The notes under the pieces are model-generated. The model saw nothing but the letters and a program-made list of their open reading frames with translations, had not been told where the DNA came from and did not search any database. A program made the position numbers and the translations under genes. This document shows, piece by piece, positions 1,746 to 11,349 of a DNA stretch of 11,349 bases (position 1 is its first letter; the number at the start of each line of letters is the position of its first letter). The DNA is from JAFGIT01 sp016929465 [NCBI: Candidatus Coatesbacteria bacterium] (GTDB lineage: Bacteria; B130-G9): NCBI GenBank assembly GCA_016929465.1, contig JAFGIT010000008.1, forward strand, positions 1 to 11,349, given 5' to 3'.

Positions 1746-2495
1746 ATGTCCGGGCACTCTAAATGGAGCACAATAAAGCGCAAGAAGGGCAAAGAGGATG
1801 CCAAGCGGGGCAATCTCTTCACCAGGTTGATCAAGGAGATCACCGTCGCCGCGAGGCAAGGCGGCGGCGACCCTAACAGCAATCCCAGATTGCGCACGGC
1901 GATGGTCTCAGCACGGTCCGCCAATATGCCGAACGACAATATAGAGCGGGCAATAAAGAAGGGCACCGGGGAGCTCCCCGGGGTTTCCTATGAGGACGTC
2001 AGCTACGAGGGTTATGGTCCTGGAGGCGTTGCGATCCTCATCGAGTGCCTGACCGACAACAAGAATCGAACCGTCTCCGAATTAAGGCACATCCTCTCCA
2101 AGAACGGCGGGAGATTGGCTGAGATGGGAAGCGTATCCTGGGTCTTTGATAGGAAGACGCTCATCGGTATAGACGAGAAGGATGTCCAGGACGAGGAAAA
2201 GCTGCTCGAGGCAGCAATTTCTGCCGGCGCAGATGACATGAGCAATGAGGATGGTGTATTCGAGATCACGGCCGCTCCGGATCATTTTGCCGACCTTGTC
2301 GAGGCCTTGACGGAAGATGGCTACGAGCCCGTATCCGCCGAGCTGACGATGATACCGAGGACGATGGCCAAGGTCGAGGGCAAGGAGGCCATCCAAATGC
2401 TTAGGTTGATGGAGCGCCTCGAGGACAGCGACGAGGTTCAGAAGGTCTTTGCGAATTTTGACATCGATCCCGAGATCATGGAGGAAATCGACTGA
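1746..2495 (+). CDS. yebC: YebC/PmpR (TACO1) family protein
   Basis: The N-terminus [21 protein letters not shown] is diagnostic of the YebC/TACO1 family, as are [28 protein letters not shown] and the central [14 protein letters not shown]. The length of 249 residues is typical. Members have been described as DNA-binding transcription regulators (PmpR) and, more recently, as ribosome-associated factors that help translation through difficult sequences such as polyproline; mitochondrial TACO1 is a translation activator. The ATG at 1746 is preferred over the in-frame GTG at 1743. GGAGG at 1735-1739 lies six bases from the ATG, and MSGHSKWS is the usual family start. The stop TGA (2493-2495) overlaps the proposed CTG start of ruvC. 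The yebC-ruvC-ruvA order is common in bacteria. Confidence 0.97.
2480..2485 (+). promoter_or_regulatory. Ribosome binding site that fixes the ruvC start
   Basis: GGAGGA lies inside the last codons of yebC, six bases before CTG at 2492. The ruvC frame has a TGA at 2459-2461. Between that stop and the first conserved RuvC residues there is no ATG, GTG or TTG. Spacing, the four-base CTGA overlap and the protein alignment all converge on CTG 2492 as the start. Confidence 0.75.
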
Positions 2496-3013
2496 TAGTT
2501 CTGGGCGTTGACCCTAGCTGCAGATCGACTGGTTACGGCGTAATCGAGCAGGGCGAGCGAAATAGTCTCGCTCTCGTCGATTACGGGGCTATCCCAGTTC
2601 CGGCGGCGACTTCATTGCCGGAGACACTTCATAGAATCTACATCAAGATCGAGTCTATAATAGCGGAATTCAAGCCGGATGTGATGGCTCTCGAGGCGGT
2701 GTTCTACGCTCAAAACGTCCGGTCCGCAATCAGGCTTGGCGCAGTCAGAGGCGTGGTCATGCTTGCAGCTCGCAGCAGCGAAGTCCCAGTTTTCGAGCAC
2801 GCAGCTACCGAGATTAAGCTCGCCGTTGCGGGATTCGGCCGAGCGAGCAAGGAGTCCGTTCAGAAGATGGTCAAAGTCGCTCTTGGCCTAAAAGAGGTCC
2901 CAACTCCCAACGATGCAGCGGACGCATTGGCTGCGGCGATCTGCCATTTGAATACTGCGAAACTCCGCGAGAAGATCAGTAGCTCCGTTGGCAAGAGGAT
3001 GAGCGTCAAATGA
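2492..3013 (+). CDS. ruvC: Holliday junction resolvase RuvC, probable CTG start
   Basis: RuvC is the dimeric endonuclease that cuts Holliday junctions symmetrically, working with the RuvAB branch migration motor. From CTG 2492 the protein begins (M)[19 protein letters not shown] and is 173 residues long, the length of E. coli RuvC as I recall it. The RNase H-fold acidic residues are in place: D7 in GVDPS, E68 in [10 protein letters not shown], and D141 and D144 in NDAADALA. No ATG, GTG or TTG exists in frame between the upstream stop at 2459 and TTG 2615. Starting at 2615 would remove the catalytic D7, so a non-standard start is needed: CTG 2492, or less likely ATA 2495. It overlaps yebC by four bases and has GGAGGA upstream, which implies translational coupling. 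A sequencing error turning ATGA into CTGA is the main alternative. Confidence 0.95.
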
Positions 3014-3037
3014 TCCGCGTTAGGGAGTGTTGATGAG

Positions 3038-3628
3038 ATGATGGATTATATAACCGGAACCATCATTGAGAAGTCACCGGAGCGCGTCGTATTGGAGGCC
3101 GGGGGCATTGGAATATCTCTTCAGATTACATTTTCGACGTATCAGCAGTTGGGACAAGTAGGCTCCAGGGCCAAGCTTCTTACGCACCTGCAATTCAGGG
3201 AACCCTCATTTGACCTTTATGGCTTTGCATCGTCCTCAGAGAGGGATGTATTCCGGCTTCTGATTCAGGTCTCGGGGGTGGGTGTCAAAGTAGCAAGGAC
3301 GATTCTTTCTGGAATCAATCCCCGAGATGTCAGAGATGCCATTCTAAATAATGATGTGGCCCGTTTGTCGTGTGCTCCGGGAATCGGCAAAAAGACGGCC
3401 GAGCGCATCTGCGTATTTCTTCGTGACAAGGCCCTTCAGCTGACTACTCAGCGGGAACCGGGGACTTCAGGTGCAGATGATGCCGAGAATGACGCCCTTG
3501 CTGCTCTCGAGTCGCTCGGGATCCCTGCGAGCAAAGCGAGACCGGTGATACGGAAGCTCATCGAGCGGCACGGTTCATCCATCGCTGTGGACGAGCTTGT
3601 CCGGGGAGCGCTCAAATCACTGTTCTAG
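3038..3628 (+). CDS. ruvA: Holliday junction branch migration protein RuvA
   Basis: RuvA binds Holliday junctions as a tetramer and positions RuvB hexamers for branch migration. The 196-residue protein has the three standard domains. An OB-fold covers residues 1-63 (MMDYITG to FDLYGF). A helix-hairpin-helix domain follows, with two motifs: LIQVSGVGVKVARTIL (75-90) and CAPGIGKKTAERICVFL (112-128). After an acidic linker the small RuvB-binding domain covers about 150-196 (NDALAALESLGIP onward). The first ATG at 3038 is preferred over 3041 because MMDYITG lines up with the family start M-x-x-x-(I/L)-x-G; GGGAG at 3023-3027 is ten bases upstream. It follows ruvC by 24 bases. ruvB, the usual next gene, is absent: a 487-base gap and an unrelated gene follow. 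Confidence 0.97.
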   Translation: MMDYITGTIIEKSPERVVLEAGGIGISLQITFSTYQQLGQVGSRAKLLTHLQFREPSFDLYGFASSSERDVFRLLIQVSGVGVKVARTILSGINPRDVRDAILNNDVARLSCAPGIGKKTAERICVFLRDKALQLTTQREPGTSGADDAENDALAALESLGIPASKARPVIRKLIERHGSSIAVDELVRGALKSLF

Positions 3629-3706
3629 AGACAGGCTGAGCTGTAACCCCCCCAGTAATAGGCCTCGTATCGGCCCGTTTGGTTAGATCGCAACGGCTAT
3701 GAACAA

Positions 3707-3748
3707 TCCCGATCAGCGTCCTTGATAGCCTGCTCCGGAATCTCGGGA
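3707..3748. repeat. Inverted repeat TCCCGA / TCGGGA
   Basis: TCCCGA at 3707-3712 pairs with TCGGGA at 3743-3748 across 30 bases. CAA sits just before the left arm and CAATTG just after the right, so the match extends weakly if two bases bulge out. Role unknown; it may be part of the 3' end of the ruvA message. Confidence 0.3.
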
Positions 3749-3776
3749 CAATTGGATTGGAGGTTATTGTGATAAT

Positions 3777-3790
3777 TCCCCCCGGGGGGA
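3777..3790. repeat. Perfect 14-base palindrome TCCCCCCGGGGGGA
   Basis: Six C followed directly by six G, flanked by T and A, make a loopless perfect palindrome. It sits in AT-rich surroundings (GATAAT before, TTTGAC after), so it stands out in composition. A hairpin would need to open the central pairs to form a loop. A protein site or part of a repetitive element are possible. Confidence 0.5.
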
Positions 3791-3812
3791 TTTGACTTCC
3801 CGCTGAAATGTG

Positions 3813-3848
3813 GGCGATTCATTCGCCGCTCCCGGCCACGATTTGGCC
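3813..3848. repeat. Two adjacent 5-5-5 hairpin sequences
   Basis: GGCGA-TTCAT-TCGCC (3813-3827) is followed after six bases by GGCCA-CGATT-TGGCC (3834-3848). Each has perfect five-base arms and a five-base loop. No T-run follows, so they do not look like a simple terminator. They could act in the RNA, for example to stabilise the 3' end or in a leader, or as paired protein sites. Confidence 0.45.
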
Positions 3849-3912
3849 TTGAAATTCTGACTCCCCGCGCCTATTGATAGCCAATTATCATAGTTATTTT
3901 GAGTCTCGATAA

Positions 3913-3927
3913 GCCTTGACTTAAGGC
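3913..3927. repeat. Third 5-5-5 hairpin sequence GCCTT-GACTT-AAGGC
   Basis: Perfect five-base arms around a five-base loop, the same geometry as the two at 3813-3848. It contains TTGACT (3916-3921), a near-consensus -35 box, so it could be an operator over a promoter whose -10 is TATTAT at 3942. The 20-base gap between the boxes is too long for a good sigma-70 promoter. Confidence 0.35.
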
Positions 3928-3941
3928 CACAAGATGCGGCA

Positions 3942-3970
3942 TATTATATTCGCAAGTGATATATATGCGA
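3942..3970 (+). promoter_or_regulatory. AT-rich candidate -10 region with a flanking inverted repeat
   Basis: TATTATATT at 3942-3950 contains two overlapping five-of-six matches to TATAAT. Directly after it, TCGCA (3950-3954) and TGCGA (3966-3970) form an inverted repeat with an 11-base AT-rich centre. Transcription from here would give a leader of roughly 160 bases for the giant gene. No well-spaced -35 is visible, so the promoter call is weak. Confidence 0.3.
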
Positions 3971-4015
3971 GTTGGGTGCTTGCTGACAGTGTTCATTATT
4001 CTGCTCTATTGCGGC

Positions 4016-4029
4016 AACCGGGGACGGTT
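4016..4029 (+). promoter_or_regulatory. Possible leader hairpin AACCG-GGGA-CGGTT
   Basis: A five-base stem closes a GGGA loop that fits the stable GNRA tetraloop pattern. It would lie in the untranslated leader of the giant gene. It does not match any riboswitch consensus that I can recognise. Confidence 0.3.
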
Positions 4030-4104
4030 ACCTGCGGTAGAAGAGGTGTTTCTATAAGACGTTATGCTATGTATTGGGGTTGCGATTTCTTGATTGGAGA
4101 ATCT

Positions 4105-4111
4105 AAGGAGG
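4105..4111 (+). promoter_or_regulatory. Strong ribosome binding site for the giant surface protein
   Basis: AAGGAGG, a near-perfect anti-16S complement, ends four bases before ATG 4116. It fixes the start, and a signal peptide follows directly. Confidence 0.85.
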
Positions 4112-4115
4112 AGTT

Positions 4116-7100
4116 ATGCGGAGATCTTTGAAGGCTAAGTTGGTTTTTCTGACCGCAGTATGCCTTTTCGGGTTAATCTCAGCAGCGATCGGGCAGTCGA
4201 TTGGTAGCGGCTGGCCGACATTGCATTTGGACTCGAGAAACAGGCGTGTTACAATGGAGGAAGGCCCCGATATCGCCGAGCAGAACCTTACGATCCACTG
4301 GAGTTTCGAGGCCGGATATGGCCGATCTAATCCACTGGTAGATTCTACCGGGCGAATATATGTCTTTGGCACCATAGATGGTGCACTGGGGGCATTCTCG
4401 AAGCTATTCTGCTTCAGAGAGGCTTTGCCCGATGAGGAGACCAATTGCATCACGCCCGAGCTGCTTTGGGCAACGGAGATGAATTGCTATCCTTCGAGCA
4501 CATGGTCAACCGGCGCCATCTCTCCCGATGAAAGTCGTTTCTTCTTCGCTGGCGTTGGGGACAATGGGCTTTCTCTCGATTGCTGGGATCCAGAAGGTAA
4601 TCCCGACGAGGATAATCCGGATGAGAAGTCCCTTCTCCTTTTCTCCAGTCCTTTCTTCAACGGAGGCGACGGTGCATCGGATTTGATCTTCGATAATCTG
4701 AATGTCCCCGACCTGGGGCTTACCGACGTTGTCATTGTATTTGGAAATTCAACGTCCACTTCGACCGGATATGCTTTCACCTATGACGGGATAAACGTAT
4801 GGTGGTATGGGATTAGCCCGCAAGATGCGGTTCCTTCACCCGTAGCATCATCTCCCACACACTGCTCTCAGACATATACGTACTATGATTATACGCCCGG
4901 TCCTCAGGGGGGCCTTCCGGGAAGCGGGACCTATTGGATGGGTGTCGGTCAGCCCACGACGATCTATGCCGGCGGCGAGGATGGTAACCTCTACGCCATG
5001 CACACGATCACGGAGACTTTCTGGTCTCCTCCGCCCGCGATTCAGCCACCGCCTCCTCCTCCTCTGGGCGATCCTGAACCAGTCACGCTGAAGTGGTCCT
5101 ATGCAATTGGCAGTGACGCCCTCGTGAGTTCTCCAGTGATTATTCCACGAAGCTGGGGCTTCCGGAAGGATCCGGTGCAGGATAATACCCCTGGCCCAAA
5201 TGGAGAAATTCCCCAGATCCACTACAACAATGTAGGCACTACTACCTGCACGATTTACATCTGCGATCCTGCCGGAGTTCTCTATTGCATCGAGGATTCC
5301 TACTACGAGGAGCATGATTGGGAGTTCTATGGTTGGATGCCCAGCGAGCCTCCCATGGACATTTGGATTGACAATAACGATGAGTACCAAACGCAGGGCG
5401 ATCCTCCGCCACCTCCGCCGGGATTCCCGATGGGTGCCTATCCACGCAAATATACCTCGAAGCTCCGTTGGTCCTATGACCAGTTCACCGGCGGGATACA
5501 CGGGACACCGATTCTCAGCGGAAACATCTTGTATGTTCAGGACGATACATCGATCACCGCGATAGACCTCCAGACTGGCATGGATATGAACACGAATTAC
5601 TTCGGCGAGACCGAGGGCACGGCGATCTGGTCAGCGTCTTGTCTTGACGATCAGCCACCATTGGCAAGCACCGGTTCTGAGTGGAATTTCGCCCCCGGTG
5701 GCTCCTATAGTGTCGCGCCGTCGCCGGTTCTTGATGGCAACGGTCTTATCTGGATGGTGACCAGCGACGGCTGGCTGGAGGTAGTCGCGAGTAGAGACAT
5801 GCCCGACAGAGGCCTTGTAATGGGCGATGTCGCTTTTCTCTATATCGTGCCAAATGAGGATGACCACCATAGAGGCTATTCGGTGGCGCCTTTCTATGAG
5901 CCGATGACGGGCCATGCGCCGCTTACCATGGCATGCTCGCCGATCATCTCTGATGGCACCCTCTATGTCAGAGGTGATGGCCAGGCCCCTGACCCCTTCT
6001 CGATGAGTCCATACGACACCGGTTGGGTGCTCAAAGTGAAGGAGAATGTAGTAGGACGTTTCAGGTTCAACGACGTGAACCCGAAAGTGGGCTACACGGA
6101 GTCCAACCGAATGCACCGTGTGCCGACCGTATTTGATTATGAGGTAAATTATTACGATCCCGACTGCAGCTCAGTCGGCGTCTATACGGATGATGGCAAT
6201 GCAGTTCCACATCCCGAGAATCCAGTCATGCTCATCGTTGATGGCTTCTATACTTTCTGGCGATCGGATGAGGAAGACCTCGGGTATCCGCCGCTTCATA
6301 TACTTCCAGGGAATGAGAATCCACAGAATCCCCCTGCTAGCTATGGCTTCCCGCCCTGGGGCATCTGGGAGGGGATGGTATATCAGGTAGAGACGGGCGA
6401 CGATGAGCGGAATCTCGGCATGTATGAATACGTCTCTGACGGGACGGTATCGAATCCGTCACTGCGAGAATACATCTACTACAATCAGAACGGCTGCTTC
6501 AATTACTTCTTCGAGATGGAAGATGGCTTCGGGGAGAACGCGCCGATATTGTCCGAGATATACTCCGGCCCGAATATGTGTCCGGAGCTTTATTTTGTGA
6601 AGACTGCGGTTGTGTTCGACGGGACAATAGCGCGGCCGGAGAAGAGCGTTCTGGATATTGCCGTTTGGTATTACGATTCCGATGAGGATTCTCCAGCCGT
6701 TCAAGACGTCGTAATGGAAGACGTTAACTACACGATGCAGAGCGACGCTGTAATCGGTAACTCGGCGGTTAGATGGGAAGACAGGTATTCGCTTCATTTG
6801 ACGACAACGAATGACACGCCGAGCTTCCATTTCGAATTCACCGACAGTCCGACACCAGTACACCCGGATTGGCCGAGGGATTCCGTCGAGCCTTGCACGA
6901 CGAGACACCCTGAATATGGCCAGTTGTTCACTCTGCTTCTCCGTGATGGCAGGGTTACTCCGGCGGTCGGGCCTCCAGGCGAATATACATATAGCGTGAG
7001 GTTCTTTGATCCGCATAGGCGGGCTTCGGGTATCAACACGGGGCAGATAGGTTCACTCAACGCCCATATCTATATTGATGGTGAGCAATATGAAATGGAG

Positions 7101-10100
7101 CTTCTGCCCGGAAACGGATCCCAGTTTGACGGCCTGTACACGTATAAGACCGTTTACAATGAATATGGTGAGCACAATTTCCGCTTCGATTTCTACTATG
7201 AAGGGCAGATGCCCTACTATAACCTTCCGAGAACAACCAGCGTCTTGACCTCGGACCCGGACAACGTCACAGTCGAGAGAAATCCAGCCCCGGCAATCGC
7301 CAGGGTCGAGGCTCCGGAGTTCGAATATGTCGGTCCTACGATCGCGCAATGGCCTTCGTTCAATCGCTATCAAGACAACAATTCGCTCGAAGGTCAGGCA
7401 TTCGGTCCCGCGATGCCTATAATGAGCGACATCTTGATTGGCGAGCCGATAAAGGGCACCCCGGTGATCGGTGGCTCCGAATCCACTATCTTCGTTGGCT
7501 CGCGTGACGGGCGTGTGTATGCCGTTACGCCCGAGTTGGACGAAATCAGATGGGAATTCGACACTGGTGACTTTGTTGATTGCACGACCGCCCTTGGCCA
7601 GGAGCGAAGTCTGATCGTCGCATCGAGGTCCGGAACGATATTTGCACTTGATTCCTGGACTGGCGAGAAACGCTGGATATTCAGCGCAGCAAACATCGCA
7701 GATAGTTCTCCGTGCGTCGGGCTGAGTGGCGATATTTATATCGGCTCGTATTCGGGTACGTTCTACTCGATCGACGGTCGAAGAGGCACGCTTAACTGGT
7801 CCTACGATCTGCCTACAAGTGGCGCGGTCCAGGGAAGTGCTGCAGAAGGAACCAGCTCGACAGTCTATTTCGGCTCGTATGACAACAACGTCTATGCGCT
7901 CAATAACGCAGGGCTTCTCCTCTGGAGCTTCGAGACGGATGGAATGGTCAATAGCTCGCCATCGGTCGAGAGCAATGGTAACGTGGACAGCGTCTATGTA
8001 GGCTCAATCGATCATTCCGTTTACAGACTCGATTATGACTTCACAATCGGGGCGCCCGAGCCGGATATGATCTGGAAATATACGACAGGTGGGCCGATAC
8101 AATATGCTTCGCCTGGCATTGATGGGGAGTTTATCTATGTCGCCTCCGATGCGCTCTACGCCATTGACAAGAATACGGGCGAGCTAGGATGGTCTTACGT
8201 CCCAGGTGGCTCAATCTTTGGCACGATCGCGGTCGACTCAAACGGCGTTGTTTACTTTGGTGCAAATGACGCGAGGGTTTATGCAGTCCGCGCGCCGGTT
8301 GATCCGGATTACATCGCCCGTAAGGAGGGCGAGTTGGTCTGGTGGCAGAATGTTGGCAGCAAGATATGGATATCTGGTGTCTCGATCTCGCCCGACAGTT
8401 ATGGCCATGAGACTGGTACTCGTACGAATGGCTACGGCGACTTGTATTTCGGTTGCTGGGATGGAAATCTCTACAAGATTGCTGACCGCGGCTATAACAT
8501 TCCGCCGGTGCTAACTTCTCCGTCCATTTCGCCAACGATTGGTGACAGTTCCCAATCCTTCCGGCTTGGTATCCACTTCAATGATGCAGATGGTGACGAG
8601 CCACTGCAGCAGAAGGTCTATATCGATGACGTCCCGTACGACATGGTGTTCACCGGGATTGGGATGCCGTCGAATGGTGAGTACGAGTTCTACACCGACT
8701 TCGCTTTGAGCAACGGGGTACATTCGTATTACTTCGAATTCAGCGACGGCAACTGGGCAGGCAACGATCCAGTGCGTCTGCCGGCGACTGCTCCTGAAGA
8801 CCAGTTCGATGGCCCGACGATTGACAACAAGCCAAATCTGTCGGACGCGATGGTAGATCCGACCTATGGTGACGACGATCAGGAGTTCGTCTTCTCAGTC
8901 TACTTCTCTGATCCAGACGGTGATGCTCCGGTATCGGCGATGGTGTTCATCGACGGCGATGGCCACGCCCTTCTGGACCCCGCAGGCGAAGGCGAGACAC
9001 CTTATGACGGTATCTATACTTATTCGGCACTTGGCTCCGCTCTGGGAGTGGGAGACCATACATATCACTTCGAGTTCGAGTATTCGGTGAATGAATGGGT
9101 GAGGATACCTGTGGTGGGCGAGCGGACCGATCTTACGGTCAACAACGCTCCTGTCCTGGAAACTGGAACCGTATCTCCTATGACGGGAGACACAACAGGG
9201 GATTACACCTACTCCGTCCACTATTTCGATGTCGATGATCATCCACCTGCAAGAGCGCATGTGGTTATTGACGGCACATCGCACGAGATGTCGCTCTATA
9301 GCGATTTCGACTCGGATGGGACGTATCAATTCGTCTATTCGGGCGAGCTGGTTGGTCCTGGCTCCCACATCTACTACTTCGATTTCGAAGATACAGAGGG
9401 AGGTATATCTCTGCTTCCGGCGCCTCCATTGCCGCCGCAGCTAGGACCACTAGTGAATGCCACGCCGACACTCTCATTAGGGCAAGTGACTCCTATCTCG
9501 GGTGATGCGGATACTGAATTCACGTTCTCTGTGCATTACTCAGACGTGGACGGAATCCGGCCGGGTGATATAGCTATGGTCCTCGATGGGACCCGCTATA
9601 CACTGACACTCGAGGAGGGCATAATAACCGACGGCCTCTATGCGAGAACGATCAACGGGGCTGACATTGGCCTGGGAGACGATCACTCGTTCTATTTCGA
9701 GGCGACAGATGACTCCGATTCTCATACGAGATTCCCAGCTGCGCCTGGCAGCTCATTGAGTGGGCCAGCTATCGTCGAGCCGGGCATTTATATTCCGTAT
9801 TGGCAAGTGAACAACCTGAGCGGAAAGGATACGACCCTGGTGATCGGCAATGCTGGAACCAGCGAGTTGTCCTCCGCGGTTGACGTGAGCGTCCATCTCT
9901 ACTCGGGCTTCTTGGGTTCGGAGATCGACACAATATCTCACACGATAGCTCCTGGAGAGCAGGTCAAGATCGATCTATCGGATAGGTTCGATGATGACCT
10001 AATGCGATTTGGCTTTGCGAAGGTCACTTGGGAGCGAGGTTCGATTGCGGTCTGGGCTATGGTTAGGAATGACGACTCTCAGGCGGTCTCGATGACACTC

Positions 10101-11349
10101 AAAGACCCGCAAATCAGGAGTTCCTACCTGCCATATTGGGAGGTTTCGAGCGAATCGACCATCGATACGGTACTGGCTGTTACCAACATTGGCGGAACAT
10201 TCGTCGATCTCAACATCGACTTCTACGACTTCGATGGGGATCCTGTCATCGCGACAAGCTTCTCCATCCAGCCAAGAGTCCTCCTGACATTGAAGTTGAG
10301 CGAGATTATTGCAGACCCAGAGGCGATCGGCTCCGCAGTTCTCACCTGGGACCGCGGCATCCTGGCGCTCTGGGGAATGGTAGTATCCGAGGGCAGCGGG
10401 AAGGCCTTTGAAGTAAGCTTCAATCAACCATTCAAGCTCTCAGCGGACCTCCCATACTGGATATATAAACGCTCCGCACTGACTCGGAAACTGAAGGAGA
10501 TGACGCCGGTCGAATACGGCTTCATTGATAGAGGCGTGGGCCACGCGCTTGACTATGATGTCGCGGCTATTCCGAATTCATCCCCCGCCAACAGGTCTGA
10601 TCTATCGGGTCAGATGGATTTGGGATTTGGCACGGGCGCCGGAAAGTTAGACGCACGCGTCTCTGATGTTGAGGTCAAATCCGGCCACAAGGCGCCGCCA
10701 ATCTTGACTGATTATCTGCCTTCGCCGGAGGCGCCTACGACATTGGACCGGATCACATTCGCCGTCGATTACTATGATGAGGATATGGATCCACCAGCGA
10801 TAGCGAAGCTCGTCTTCGTCCGCGATGGTGATGTTATCAGTGAACGTGAGATGACTCTCGAGGAAGGCGATGCTTATGACGGCAGGTATTCGCATCGGAC
10901 CTTCCTGACAGAGGACACACACTCATACCACTTCCTCTTCTCTGACGGAGAGACGACGGTTCAGCTTCCGGCCGGTTCCAATTACACTCTGACCGTGACT
11001 GCGGCCAGTCAGCAGTTGGATACATGGCTGGTAATAACGAACCTGACAGAGACGCCTGGCCCGGGAATTGTCAGCCTGTTTGGCCCACAGGGGAGCGTTG
11101 TTGGTCTTCTCGAGACGCAGCTTGGGGGCCTCTATAGCGCAGCGATGATGAAGCTGAGCGAGACATCGGTTCTGGACGGCTATGGAAGCGGCTCAATCTC
11201 GATGGGCATCGCTAATCCGCTTCTGAATGTCTGGGGTATCATACATAGTGACACGTTTGACACGGGCTACACACTGAATTTCGAGGCACTGCACGGCGAG
11301 TCGATGTATGTCCCGTACTGGTCGATCAACGATGAATACGGAGTTGACA
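4116..11349 (+). CDS. Giant exported mosaic protein: two PQQ-like beta-propellers, beta-sandwich modules and PYW repeats (runs off right edge)
   Basis: One frame stays open for at least 2411 codons without a stop. The protein starts MRRSLKAKLVFLTAVCLFGL, a Sec signal peptide with possible cleavage after AIG at residue 26, so it is exported. I do not recognise the whole protein as a named family. Domains in order: a divergent PQQ-type propeller region (about 55-650) with PPPPPP at 311-316 and 430-435; three beta-sandwich modules (about 654-1062); an eight-bladed PQQ-like propeller (about 1113-1460); four beta-sandwich modules (about 1461-1886); then PYW repeats of about 110 residues from 1890 to the edge, the third split by an eighth sandwich module. 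PQQ-like repeats here need not bind the cofactor; such propellers often act as scaffolds. The C-terminus is outside, so anchoring (cell wall, outer membrane or sorting domain) cannot be judged. Role in adhesion or surface structure is inference. It has its own strong ribosome binding site and probably its own promoter. Confidence 0.93.
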   Translation, partial: MRRSLKAKLVFLTAVCLFGLISAAIGQSIGSGWPTLHLDSRNRRVTMEEGPDIAEQNLTIHWSFEAGYGRSNPLVDSTGRIYVFGTIDGALGAFSKLFCFREALPDEETNCITPELLWATEMNCYPSSTWSTGAISPDESRFFFAGVGDNGLSLDCWDPEGNPDEDNPDEKSLLLFSSPFFNGGDGASDLIFDNLNVPDLGLTDVVIVFGNSTSTSTGYAFTYDGINVWWYGISPQDAVPSPVASSPTHCSQTYTYYDYTPGPQGGLPGSGTYWMGVGQPTTIYAGGEDGNLYAMHTITETFWSPPPAIQPPPPPPLGDPEPVTLKWSYAIGSDALVSSPVIIPRSWGFRKDPVQDNTPGPNGEIPQIHYNNVGTTTCTIYICDPAGVLYCIEDSYYEEHDWEFYGWMPSEPPMDIWIDNNDEYQTQGDPPPPPPGFPMGAYPRKYTSKLRWSYDQFTGGIHGTPILSGNILYVQDDTSITAIDLQTGMDMNTNYFGETEGTAIWSASCLDDQPPLASTGSEWNFAPGGSYSVAPSPVLDGNGLIWMVTSDGWLEVVASRDMPDRGLVMGDVAFLYIVPNEDDHHRGYSVAPFYEPMTGHAPLTMACSPIISDGTLYVRGDGQAPDPFSMSPYDTGWVLKVKENVVGRFRFNDVNPKVGYTESNRMHRVPTVFDYEVNYYDPDCSSVGVYTDDGNAVPHPENPVMLIVDGFYTFWRSDEEDLGYPPLHILPGNENPQNPPASYGFPPWGIWEGMVYQVETGDDERNLGMYEYVSDGTVSNPSLREYIYYNQNGCFNYFFEMEDGFGENAPILSEIYSGPNMCPELYFVKTAVVFDGTIARPEKSVLDIAVWYYDSDEDSPAVQDVVMEDVNYTMQSDAVIGNSAVRWEDRYSLHLTTTNDTPSFHFEFTDSPTPVHPDWPRDSVEPCTTRHPEYGQLFTLLLRDGRVTPAVGPPGEYTYSVRFFDPHRRASGINTGQIGSLNAHIYIDGEQYEMELLPGNGSQFDGLYTYKTVYNEYGEHNFRFDFYYEGQMPYYNLPRTTSVLTSDPDNVTVERNPAPAIARVEAPEFEYVGPTIAQWPSFNRYQDNNSLEGQAFGPAMPIMSDILIGEPIKGTPVIGGSESTIFVGSRDGRVYAVTPELDEIRWEFDTGDFVDCTTALGQERSLIVASRSGTIFALDSWTGEKRWIFSAANIADSSPCVGLSGDIYIGSYSGTFYSIDGRRGTLNWSYDLPTSGAVQGSAAEGTSSTVYFGSYDNNVYALNNAGLLLWSFETDGMVNSSPSVESNGNVDSVYVGSIDHSVYRLDYDFTIGAPEPDMIWKYTTGGPIQYASPGIDGEFIYVASDALYAIDKNTGELGWSYVPGGSIFGTIAVDSNGVVYFGANDARVYAVRAPVDPDYIARKEGELVWWQNVGSKIWISGVSISPDSYGHETGTRTNGYGDLYFGCWDGNLYKIADRGYNIPPVLTSPSISPTIGDSSQSFRLGIHFNDADGDEPLQQKVYIDDVPYDMVFTGIGMPSNGEYEFYTDFALSNGVHSYYFEFSDGNWAGNDPVRLPATAPEDQFDGPTIDNKPNLSDAMVDPTYGDDDQEFVFSVYFSDPDGDAPVSAMVFIDGDGHALLDPAGEGETPYDGIYTYSALGSALGVGDHTYHFEFEYSVNEWVRIPVVGERTDLTVNNAPVLETGTVSPMTGDTTGDYTYSVHYFDVDDHPPARAHVVIDGTSHEMSLYSDFDSDGTYQFVYSGELVGPGSHIYYFDFEDTEGGISLLPAPPLPPQLGPLVNATPTLSLGQVTPISGDADTEFTFSVHYSDVDGIRPGDIAMVLDGTRYTLTLEEGIITDGLYARTINGADIGLGDDHSFYFEATDDSDSHTRFPAAPGSSLSGPAIVEPGIYIPYWQVNNLSGKDTTLVIGNAGTSELSSAVDVSVHLYSGFLGSEIDTISHTIAPGEQVKIDLSDRFDDDLMRFGFAKVTWERGSIAVWAMVRNDDSQAVSMTLKDPQIRSSYLPYWEVSSESTIDTVLAVTNIGGTFVDLNIDFYDFDGDPVIATSFSIQPRVLLTLKLSEIIADPEAIGSAVLTWDRGILALWGMVVSEGSGKAFEVSFNQPFKLSADLPYWIYKRSALTRKLKEMTPVEYGFIDRGVGHALDYDVAAIPNSSPANRSDLSGQMDLGFGTGAGKLDARVSDVEVKSGHKAPPILTDYLPSPEAPTTLDRITFAVDYYDEDMDPPAIAKLVFVRDGDVISEREMTLEEGDAYDGRYSHRTFLTEDTHSYHFLFSDGETTVQLPAGSNYTLTVTAASQQLDTWLVITNLTETPGPGIVSLFGPQGSVVGLLETQLGGLYSAAMMKLSETSVLDGYGSGSISMGIANPLLNVWGIIHSDTFDTGYTLNFEALHGESMYVPYWSINDEYGVD
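4278..6074 (+). other. Domain: first, divergent PQQ-type beta-propeller region
   Basis: Repeated patterns of the kind 'W-x-(F/Y)...SSPv...g-x-(I/L)-Y-(V/A)-x-x-x-D-G-x-L-Y-(A/C)-(I/M)' mark propeller blades. Examples are LTIHWSFEAG with RIYVFGTIDG; TTIYAGGEDGNLYAM; LKWSYAIGSDALVSSPVI; VLYCIED; LRWSYDQFTGG with ILYVQDDTSITAIDLQTG; and SYSVAPSPVL with LIWMVTSDGWLEVV. The blades are interrupted by long insertions. Two of these are proline-rich: residues 305-320, and 430-435 within GDPPPPPPGFP. Several cysteines (KLFCF, MNCYP, LDCWD, THCSQ, TTCTIYIC, VLYCIE) could form disulfides outside the cell. The blade count is uncertain. Confidence 0.65.
6075..7300 (+). repeat. Domain repeat: beta-sandwich modules a, b and c between the propellers
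   Basis: Three modules separate the two propellers. Each has an aromatic-rich strand ending in a Y-D or F-D motif, a central strand (LIVDG in a, VVMEDVNYTM in b, IYIDGEQYEM in c), and in a and b a closing (F/Y)xF(E)xxD strand. Module a (NYYDPD, D at residue 681) carries a long insertion. Module b has the acidic motif YYDSDEDSP (D854). Module c has a degenerate acidic motif, FFDPHRRASG, but the clearest IDG strand. They are divergent copies of the modules at 8499-9774. Confidence 0.6.
7452..8490 (+). repeat. Domain: eight-bladed PQQ-like beta-propeller
   Basis: Residues about 1113-1460 hold eight units of roughly 39-50 residues. Each has the pattern (S)SPxV...(I/V)Y(V/F)GSxDGxVYA(L/I)D..TGExxWxY/F. 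Clear blades read IFVGSRDGRVYAV, LIVASRSGTIFALDSWTGE, IYIGSYSGTFYSIDGRRGT, VYFGSYDNNVYALNNAG, VYVGSIDHSVYRL, IYVASDALYAIDKNTGE, VYFGANDARVYAV and LYFGCWDGNLYKI. Eight blades is the number found in PQQ dehydrogenases and in the outer membrane assembly factor BamB. I see no dehydrogenase catalytic domain, so a structural or binding role is likelier. Confidence 0.85.
8499..9774 (+). repeat. Domain repeat: four tandem beta-sandwich modules with acidic DxDxxxP motif
   Basis: Four modules follow the consensus SPxxGD....(F/Y)xxSVxYxDxDGDxP...xVxIDGxxxxM...dGxYxYxxxl..GxHxYyFeFxDg. The acidic motif starts at residues 1490 (NDADGDEP), 1599 (SDPDGDAP), 1705 (FDVDDHPP) and 1810 (SDVDGIRP), giving spacings of 109, 106 and 105 residues. 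The motif resembles calcium-binding loops of extracellular beta-sandwich domains; calcium binding is inferred. Sequences differ enough that this is old duplication rather than a recent DNA-level repeat. Confidence 0.8.
9783..11349 (+). repeat. Domain repeat: PYW modules of about 110 residues, the third one split
   Basis: Units begin with a PYW motif (PYW codons at 9795, 10131, 10452 and 11313) and continue with an 8-residue link, DTxL(V/A)(I/V)xN, a middle (V)xLY/FYDxxG strand, a LS(D/E) turn, (G)SAxVTWxRG and (I/L)A(V/L)WGMV. The first two units are 112 and 107 residues. The third spans 287 residues because about 178 residues lie between its W and its DTWLVITN at 11019. The fourth is cut by the window edge. 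I know no name for this module, though similar 'DTxLxIxNT' repeats occur in surface proteins. Confidence 0.75.
10680..11009 (+). repeat. Domain repeat: eighth beta-sandwich module, inserted in PYW repeat 3
   Basis: The segment beginning APPILTDYLPSPEAP has the same strand order as the modules at 8499-9774. It has FAVDYYDEDMDPP (acidic motif at residue 2221), KLVFVRDGDVI, EEGDAYDGRYSHRT and a closing THSYHFLFSDGETTVQLP. It lies between the PYW start (10452) and the DTWLVITN continuation (11019) of the third PYW repeat. Confidence 0.75.

Follow-up and report, generated by a model that had tools for sequence, protein, structure and literature searches.

A large open reading frame at the end of the stretch presented above appears to finish, at its C-terminal side, with a tetrad of ASRAH-type beta-sandwich domains, the third of which is split by an insertion of about 178 residues. 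The reading that we favour, with a probability of roughly 0.7, is that the strand preceding the insertion, which carries the third copy of a PYW motif (PYW3), reaches back across the inserted material to complete domain 3. We set out below the features of the protein, the fold of its repeat, the conservation of the insertion and the question of which unit owns PYW3.

The protein and its locus

The window, by which we mean the whole stretch of 11,349 nucleotides that was analysed, is the entire contig C181 of a fragmented parent genome (423 contigs). Its last gene codes for a protein that we regard as probably secreted, in view of a signal-peptide-like start judged by eye. The features that matter here are the following.

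4116..11348, forward strand: ORF of 2411 aa, last gene of the window, open at the contig end; its parts are the signal-peptide-like start, propellers, Ig-like modules and the ASRAH-like tetrad
8496..9773, forward strand: Ig-like modules m1 to m4, ahead of the array (module HMM, with m1 to m4 among the HMM seeds, and alignment)
9786..10121, forward strand: ASRAH-like unit 1, with a PYW strand at its start (unit HMM)
10122..10442, forward strand: ASRAH-like unit 2, eight strands in the model including its own PYW (structure model, fold match)
10443..10460, forward strand: strand 1 of unit 3, ADLPYW (motif; DLPYW invariant across four genomes)
10461..10682, forward strand: tether of 74 residues, first part of the insertion (low conservation, predicted disorder)
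10683..11006, forward strand: inserted Ig-like module m5 (module HMM, model, fold and sequence match)
11019..11303, forward strand: body of unit 3, strands 2 to 8, starting with DTWL (unit HMM, model)
11304..11348, forward strand: start of unit 4 with the PYW4 strand, cut by the contig end (motif, unit HMM)

The remainder of unit 4 is found at the end of contig C91 (L042, reverse strand), where it adjoins a gene that we take, from its appearance, to be like thiC; a similar gene comes after the orthologs in genomes G001 and G003. Very large ORFs, of 2612 to 6033 aa, on contigs C382, C254 and C201 (G000) and C84 (G001) match the propeller or Ig-like parts many times, so that these genomes seem to encode several giant modular proteins.

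The PYW motifs stand at residues 1894, 2006, 2113 and 2400 (base 10452 is the first of PYW3 and base 11321 the last of PYW4), and the DTxL motifs at residues 1905, 2017 and 2302. The first-pass annotation had counted 9, 9 and 187 residues from W to D in repeats 1, 2 and 3, and 112, 107 and 287 residues from one PYW to the next, the last figure falling to 109 once 178 are subtracted; a recount gave exactly the same values. It had also divided the extra part into one module of the type found upstream, which an HMM of m1 to m4 recognizes, and some 70 residues unlike anything else here. The latter stretch, of 74 residues, has indeed no substantial match in the window's own genome: among the matches listed, only the protein itself covers more than its first 7 or last 16 residues.

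Fold of the PYW repeat

The ASRAH superfamily was defined by De Souza, Iyer and Aravind (PMC2739507) through its sandwich, a strand 1 tryptophan that contributes to keeping the two sheets together, and a nearly absolutely conserved asparagine ending strand 2. The model of unit 2 displays eight strands, the first of which contains PYW2, at a block pLDDT of 75-90. A fold comparison aligns it with Thermotoga TM1070 (1nc7_B) at Z 13.7, with an rmsd of 2.5 across 109 residues, and with the sensory rhodopsin transducer of Anabaena (ASRT, 2iia) at Z 10.6; the next unrelated match stands at Z 7.9. The comparison that recovered this eight-stranded TM1070/ASRT-like sandwich was made with unit 2, unit 3 showing seven strands, confident or moderately so, together with a low-confidence PYW3. 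The two diagnostic residues are general. Tryptophan is present in strand 1 of 31/31 complete units, unit 3 included, lying in the unit 2 model within strand 10-19 rather than at its very start, and asparagine comes 7 residues after the D of every one of the same units, again with unit 3 among them, N32 being in the model the last residue of strand 24-32.

Sequence profiles are much less eloquent. The ASRT-like family PF07100 matches one unit of 15 (E 0.098), and a search of the four genomes with it at E 0.001 returned nothing; ASRT is the top PDB sequence match of the units, but with E 0.041, and profile-profile comparison with two ASRT sequences gave a probability of 4.6%. The strand 2 signature of that family, SHEshChhN, is absent from the units, which read D/E/H-T/S-x-h...N. 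With the fold and the Trp and Asn residues present, the signature absent and the sequence profiles non-significant, we therefore call the PYW repeat ASRAH-type, by fold and diagnostic residues, and not ASRT-like. Other weak profile matches were to the Slr4 S-layer family (3/15 units, best E 0.0016, below the family cut-off) and to DUF5719 (1/15 units, E 0.1).

The units come in fours in the orthologs of G001 to G003 as well as in four paralogs, the window protein holding three and the start of a fourth. Secreted ASRAH forms are known as dyads or tetrads, and the tetrads have been interpreted as capable of assembling into a tetramer-like group (PMC2739507).

An old insertion in one unit of the array

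The search for the array covered 41 genomes and found it in four, all matches being of one family, and these are all four of the examined genomes of the phylum. The orthologs include those of Candidatus Coatesbacteria B130_G9 (QMNL01000019.1) and of JAGHCW010000120.1. At the same place and in frame, the insertion is present in all four genomes, that of the window and three others, where the distance from W to D in unit 3 is 187, 192, 187 and 194 residues. It is absent from 27 of the 27 other complete units, that is units 1 and 2 of the four proteins, unit 4 of three (the cut unit 4 of the window being excluded) and 16 units from four paralogous tetrads. In insertion-free units the W-to-D distance varies naturally between 9 and 17 residues, a range within which the 16 paralog units also fall. 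Such a paralogous four-unit protein is found in each of the four genomes; its N-terminal part resembles, by eye, a C39-type peptidase.

A genome in 423 contigs, with the gene cut by a contig end, could have made one suspect an assembly or frame artefact fusing two genes; an in-frame insertion in three other genomes rules this out. An HMM built from the 27 insertion-free units matches the unit 3 body, in all four genomes, only from position 10-13 of 108, so that the first 9-12 positions, hence the start of the unit, are not adjacent to the body; likewise, in a MAFFT alignment the other units map onto unit 3 as PYW, gap and body. In a tree of unit bodies each unit position makes its own group across genomes (unit 4 from three genomes), which places the array and its insertion before the split of the three genera. 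The grouping of unit 3 with unit 4 of the paralogs, which look alike by eye, is neither favoured nor rejected (p-AU 0.36). The three orthologs and the 27 insertion-free units thus argue firmly, at the level of sequence, for an insertion between strands 1 and 2 that is real, old and derived.

This agrees with the earlier proposal that, once the array had been duplicated, one domain had entered a loop of another, the units being orthologous across four genomes and the other complete units free of the insertion. The second half of the proposal, a surface arm with a side branch, finds no support: the repeats make up an ASRAH-like tetrad, of the kind to which the authors quoted above ascribe the ability to form a tetramer-like group. 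Orthologs without the insertion, which it had been suggested to look for, did not appear either, since all three orthologs carry it and the insertion-free copies are other units and paralogs.

Outside the phylum, the unit profile has weaker echoes. Of the 193 genomes searched with it, 7 match, three of which lie outside the phylum and match weakly (best E 9.9e-7). In L050, L051, L057 and L062, proteins from two such outside genomes, the unit HMM aligns at four separate places each, in several cases weakly (domain E <=1.3), and a four-repeat profile made from one outside-phylum protein aligns with the units studied here with a probability of 95.7%. Judging from these profiles, such sets of four may be widespread. 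One further, weak ASRAH-like match (E 1.9e-5) lies at G000:C240:7671-7925 in an ORF of 933 aa, on a contig shared with a paralogous tetrad.

The inserted module and its tether

When an HMM made from m1 to m4 only is run on the insertion, it recognizes a single module, at 33.4 bits in the case of the window and at 55.3-64.7 bits for the three orthologs; among 1000 shuffled insertions, 934 scored, with a maximum of 9.4 bits, and the 74-residue stretch alone gave -1.9 bits against the same HMM. Module m5, of about 105 residues, matches by fold a module of xanthanase (Z 13.3), and this match reaches residue 201 of the model, which indicates that m5 is a complete fold with its last strand used inside the module. 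An alignment of the module family likewise finds the Ig-like module of xanthanase (PDB 6fhj/6fhn, about residues 815-920; E 1.9e-12).

Copying of m5 from m1 to m4 of the same protein was considered and finds no support: in a quick tree of 83 modules over 102 columns, in which many forks stay open, the m5 copies of the four genomes make up a group of their own (SH-aLRT 99), outside the m1 to m4 groups. A split is also seen within the first Ig-like module of the paralogs (L017, L037, L038, L039), which the module HMM matches in two separate pieces, 1-33/40 and then 34-95; in L017 this lies at about residues 461-684 of the ORF spanning 1815-6503, and the stretch between the pieces is rich in D and N there.

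The tether that precedes m5 is of another nature. Its length in the four genomes is 74, 84, 79 and 72 residues, and it is predicted to be disordered (block pLDDT about 22-35). Its identity is only 13-18% when the window is compared with the orthologs, and 63% between two genomes of one genus; the corresponding window-to-ortholog identities are 48-62% for m5 and 56-73% for the unit 3 body. DLPYW is invariant in the four genomes and conservation stops at W. Five of the seven strand positions are invariant, against 2 of the 74 in the tether, a difference (Fisher p 1.6e-5) to be taken as indicative only, coming as it does from segments picked post hoc in four sequences that are related, two of them within one genus. 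The inserted module is held in an asymmetric way, joined on its C side to strand 2 of unit 3 by about 4 residues and on its N side to PYW3 by a long flexible link.

Which unit owns PYW3?

The body of unit 3 has seven strands in both AlphaFold models, one short of eight, at a confidence that is only moderate (pLDDT 37-69 in the first, 60-85 in the second). In the first model PYW3 forms no strand, and the unit 3 body is followed by a strand that contains PYW4 (404-411, pLDDT about 48-56). In the second, which left PYW4 out and whose input alignment had PYW3 lined up with the other PYW strands, PYW3 is a short strand (14-17) with a pLDDT of about 29-35. Confident docking of PYW3 in domain 3 is thus seen in neither model. 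Fold searches with the second model bear on m5 rather than on unit 3: the matches listed were mostly to the module, and ASRT and TM1070 are absent from the 50 listed. The first-pass annotation had named two structural outcomes, repeat 3 folding as one domain or PYW3 forming a separate domain with the 70 residues that follow. The models gave neither of them: a clean single fold of repeat 3 was not obtained, and the residues after PYW3, disordered and poorly conserved as we have seen, do not resemble a domain built with that strand.

It could be, then, that PYW3 stands outside domain 3, capping unit 2 or persisting as a leftover, and that the unit 3 body is either seven-stranded or completed by the last strand of m5 or by PYW4, the whole being a linear string of domains. 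The lack of confident docking, the position of the PYW4 strand after the unit 3 body in the first model, and the gap of only a few residues between the last strand of m5 and unit 3 strand 2 all lend something to this account. We nevertheless deem it rather unlikely, for unit 2 is already eight-stranded with its own PYW, the last strand of m5 is consumed within m5, and DLPYW has been retained in four genomes while the sequence downstream of it drifted. What is more, a PYW opens the arrays and none closes them. This order, together with a complete unit 2 and a unit 3 body that is one strand short, speaks for assigning PYW3 to unit 3.

A far less probable alternative, which we would rank well below the previous one, is that tethered PYW3 acts as a swappable donor strand, completing domain 3 of a neighbouring molecule and thereby leading to a surface polymer. 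Donor-strand systems use a missing edge strand, as would be the case here, and a long disordered tether bearing one conserved strand is what such a device might look like; if true, the insertion would be a means of building the polymer. Docking within the same chain is simpler, because the tether is long enough to permit it. We retain as likely the docking of PYW3 into its own domain 3 in three dimensions.

Proposed arrangement and comparison with known systems

We can understand the C-terminal part of the protein as a presumably compact tetrad of eight-stranded ASRAH-type domains, in which the loop between strands 1 and 2 of domain 3 would have received the extra residues, that is the disordered tether and one Ig-like module. 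The tether would let PYW3 return to its domain, so that the sandwich stays whole, and domain 3 would bear its extra module directly before strand 2, the residues of which line the ligand cleft in TM1070 (PMC2739507). Binding of sugars or small molecules by ASRAH domains was inferred by the same authors. A signal-peptide-like start followed by propellers, Ig-like modules and the tetrad would fit a secreted glycan-binding protein, and m5 would then likely be an extra binding or spacing module on its head.

The arrangement matters in several ways. A natural beta-sandwich apparently tolerates a folded domain and a long disordered tether between its strands 1 and 2, and this has been kept in three genera; the ASRAH fold becomes linked to giant proteins, probably secreted, of a phylum about which little is known; and the matches point to four-domain ASRAH-like sets elsewhere. 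PMC2739507 contains no description of an ASRAH domain that a module splits, and no such title stands among the papers listed for ASRT, ASRAH, or nested or inserted beta-sandwich domains at the cell surface. The nesting is unusual and yet understandable, as a product of ordinary evolution by domain insertion.

With the ASRAH superfamily, ASRT and TM1070 included (PMC2739507), the units share the eight-stranded sandwich, the Trp of strand 1, the Asn of strand 2 and the tetrad, known there from secreted forms; they differ in reading without SHEshChhN and in having domain 3 split between strands 1 and 2. The Ig-like module of the multi-modular xanthanase (6fhj/6fhn) is alike by sequence and fold, the difference being that here the module is nested in another domain. 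As for domain insertion in general, the abstract of PMC13114784 gives inserted domains a median of 115 residues and finds them in 20% of multidomain proteins. One domain likewise interrupts another in the present case, and the size is similar, about 105 residues; what sets it apart is that a long disordered tether lies on one side only, and that the interrupted domain belongs to a tandem tetrad, as one of its four copies.
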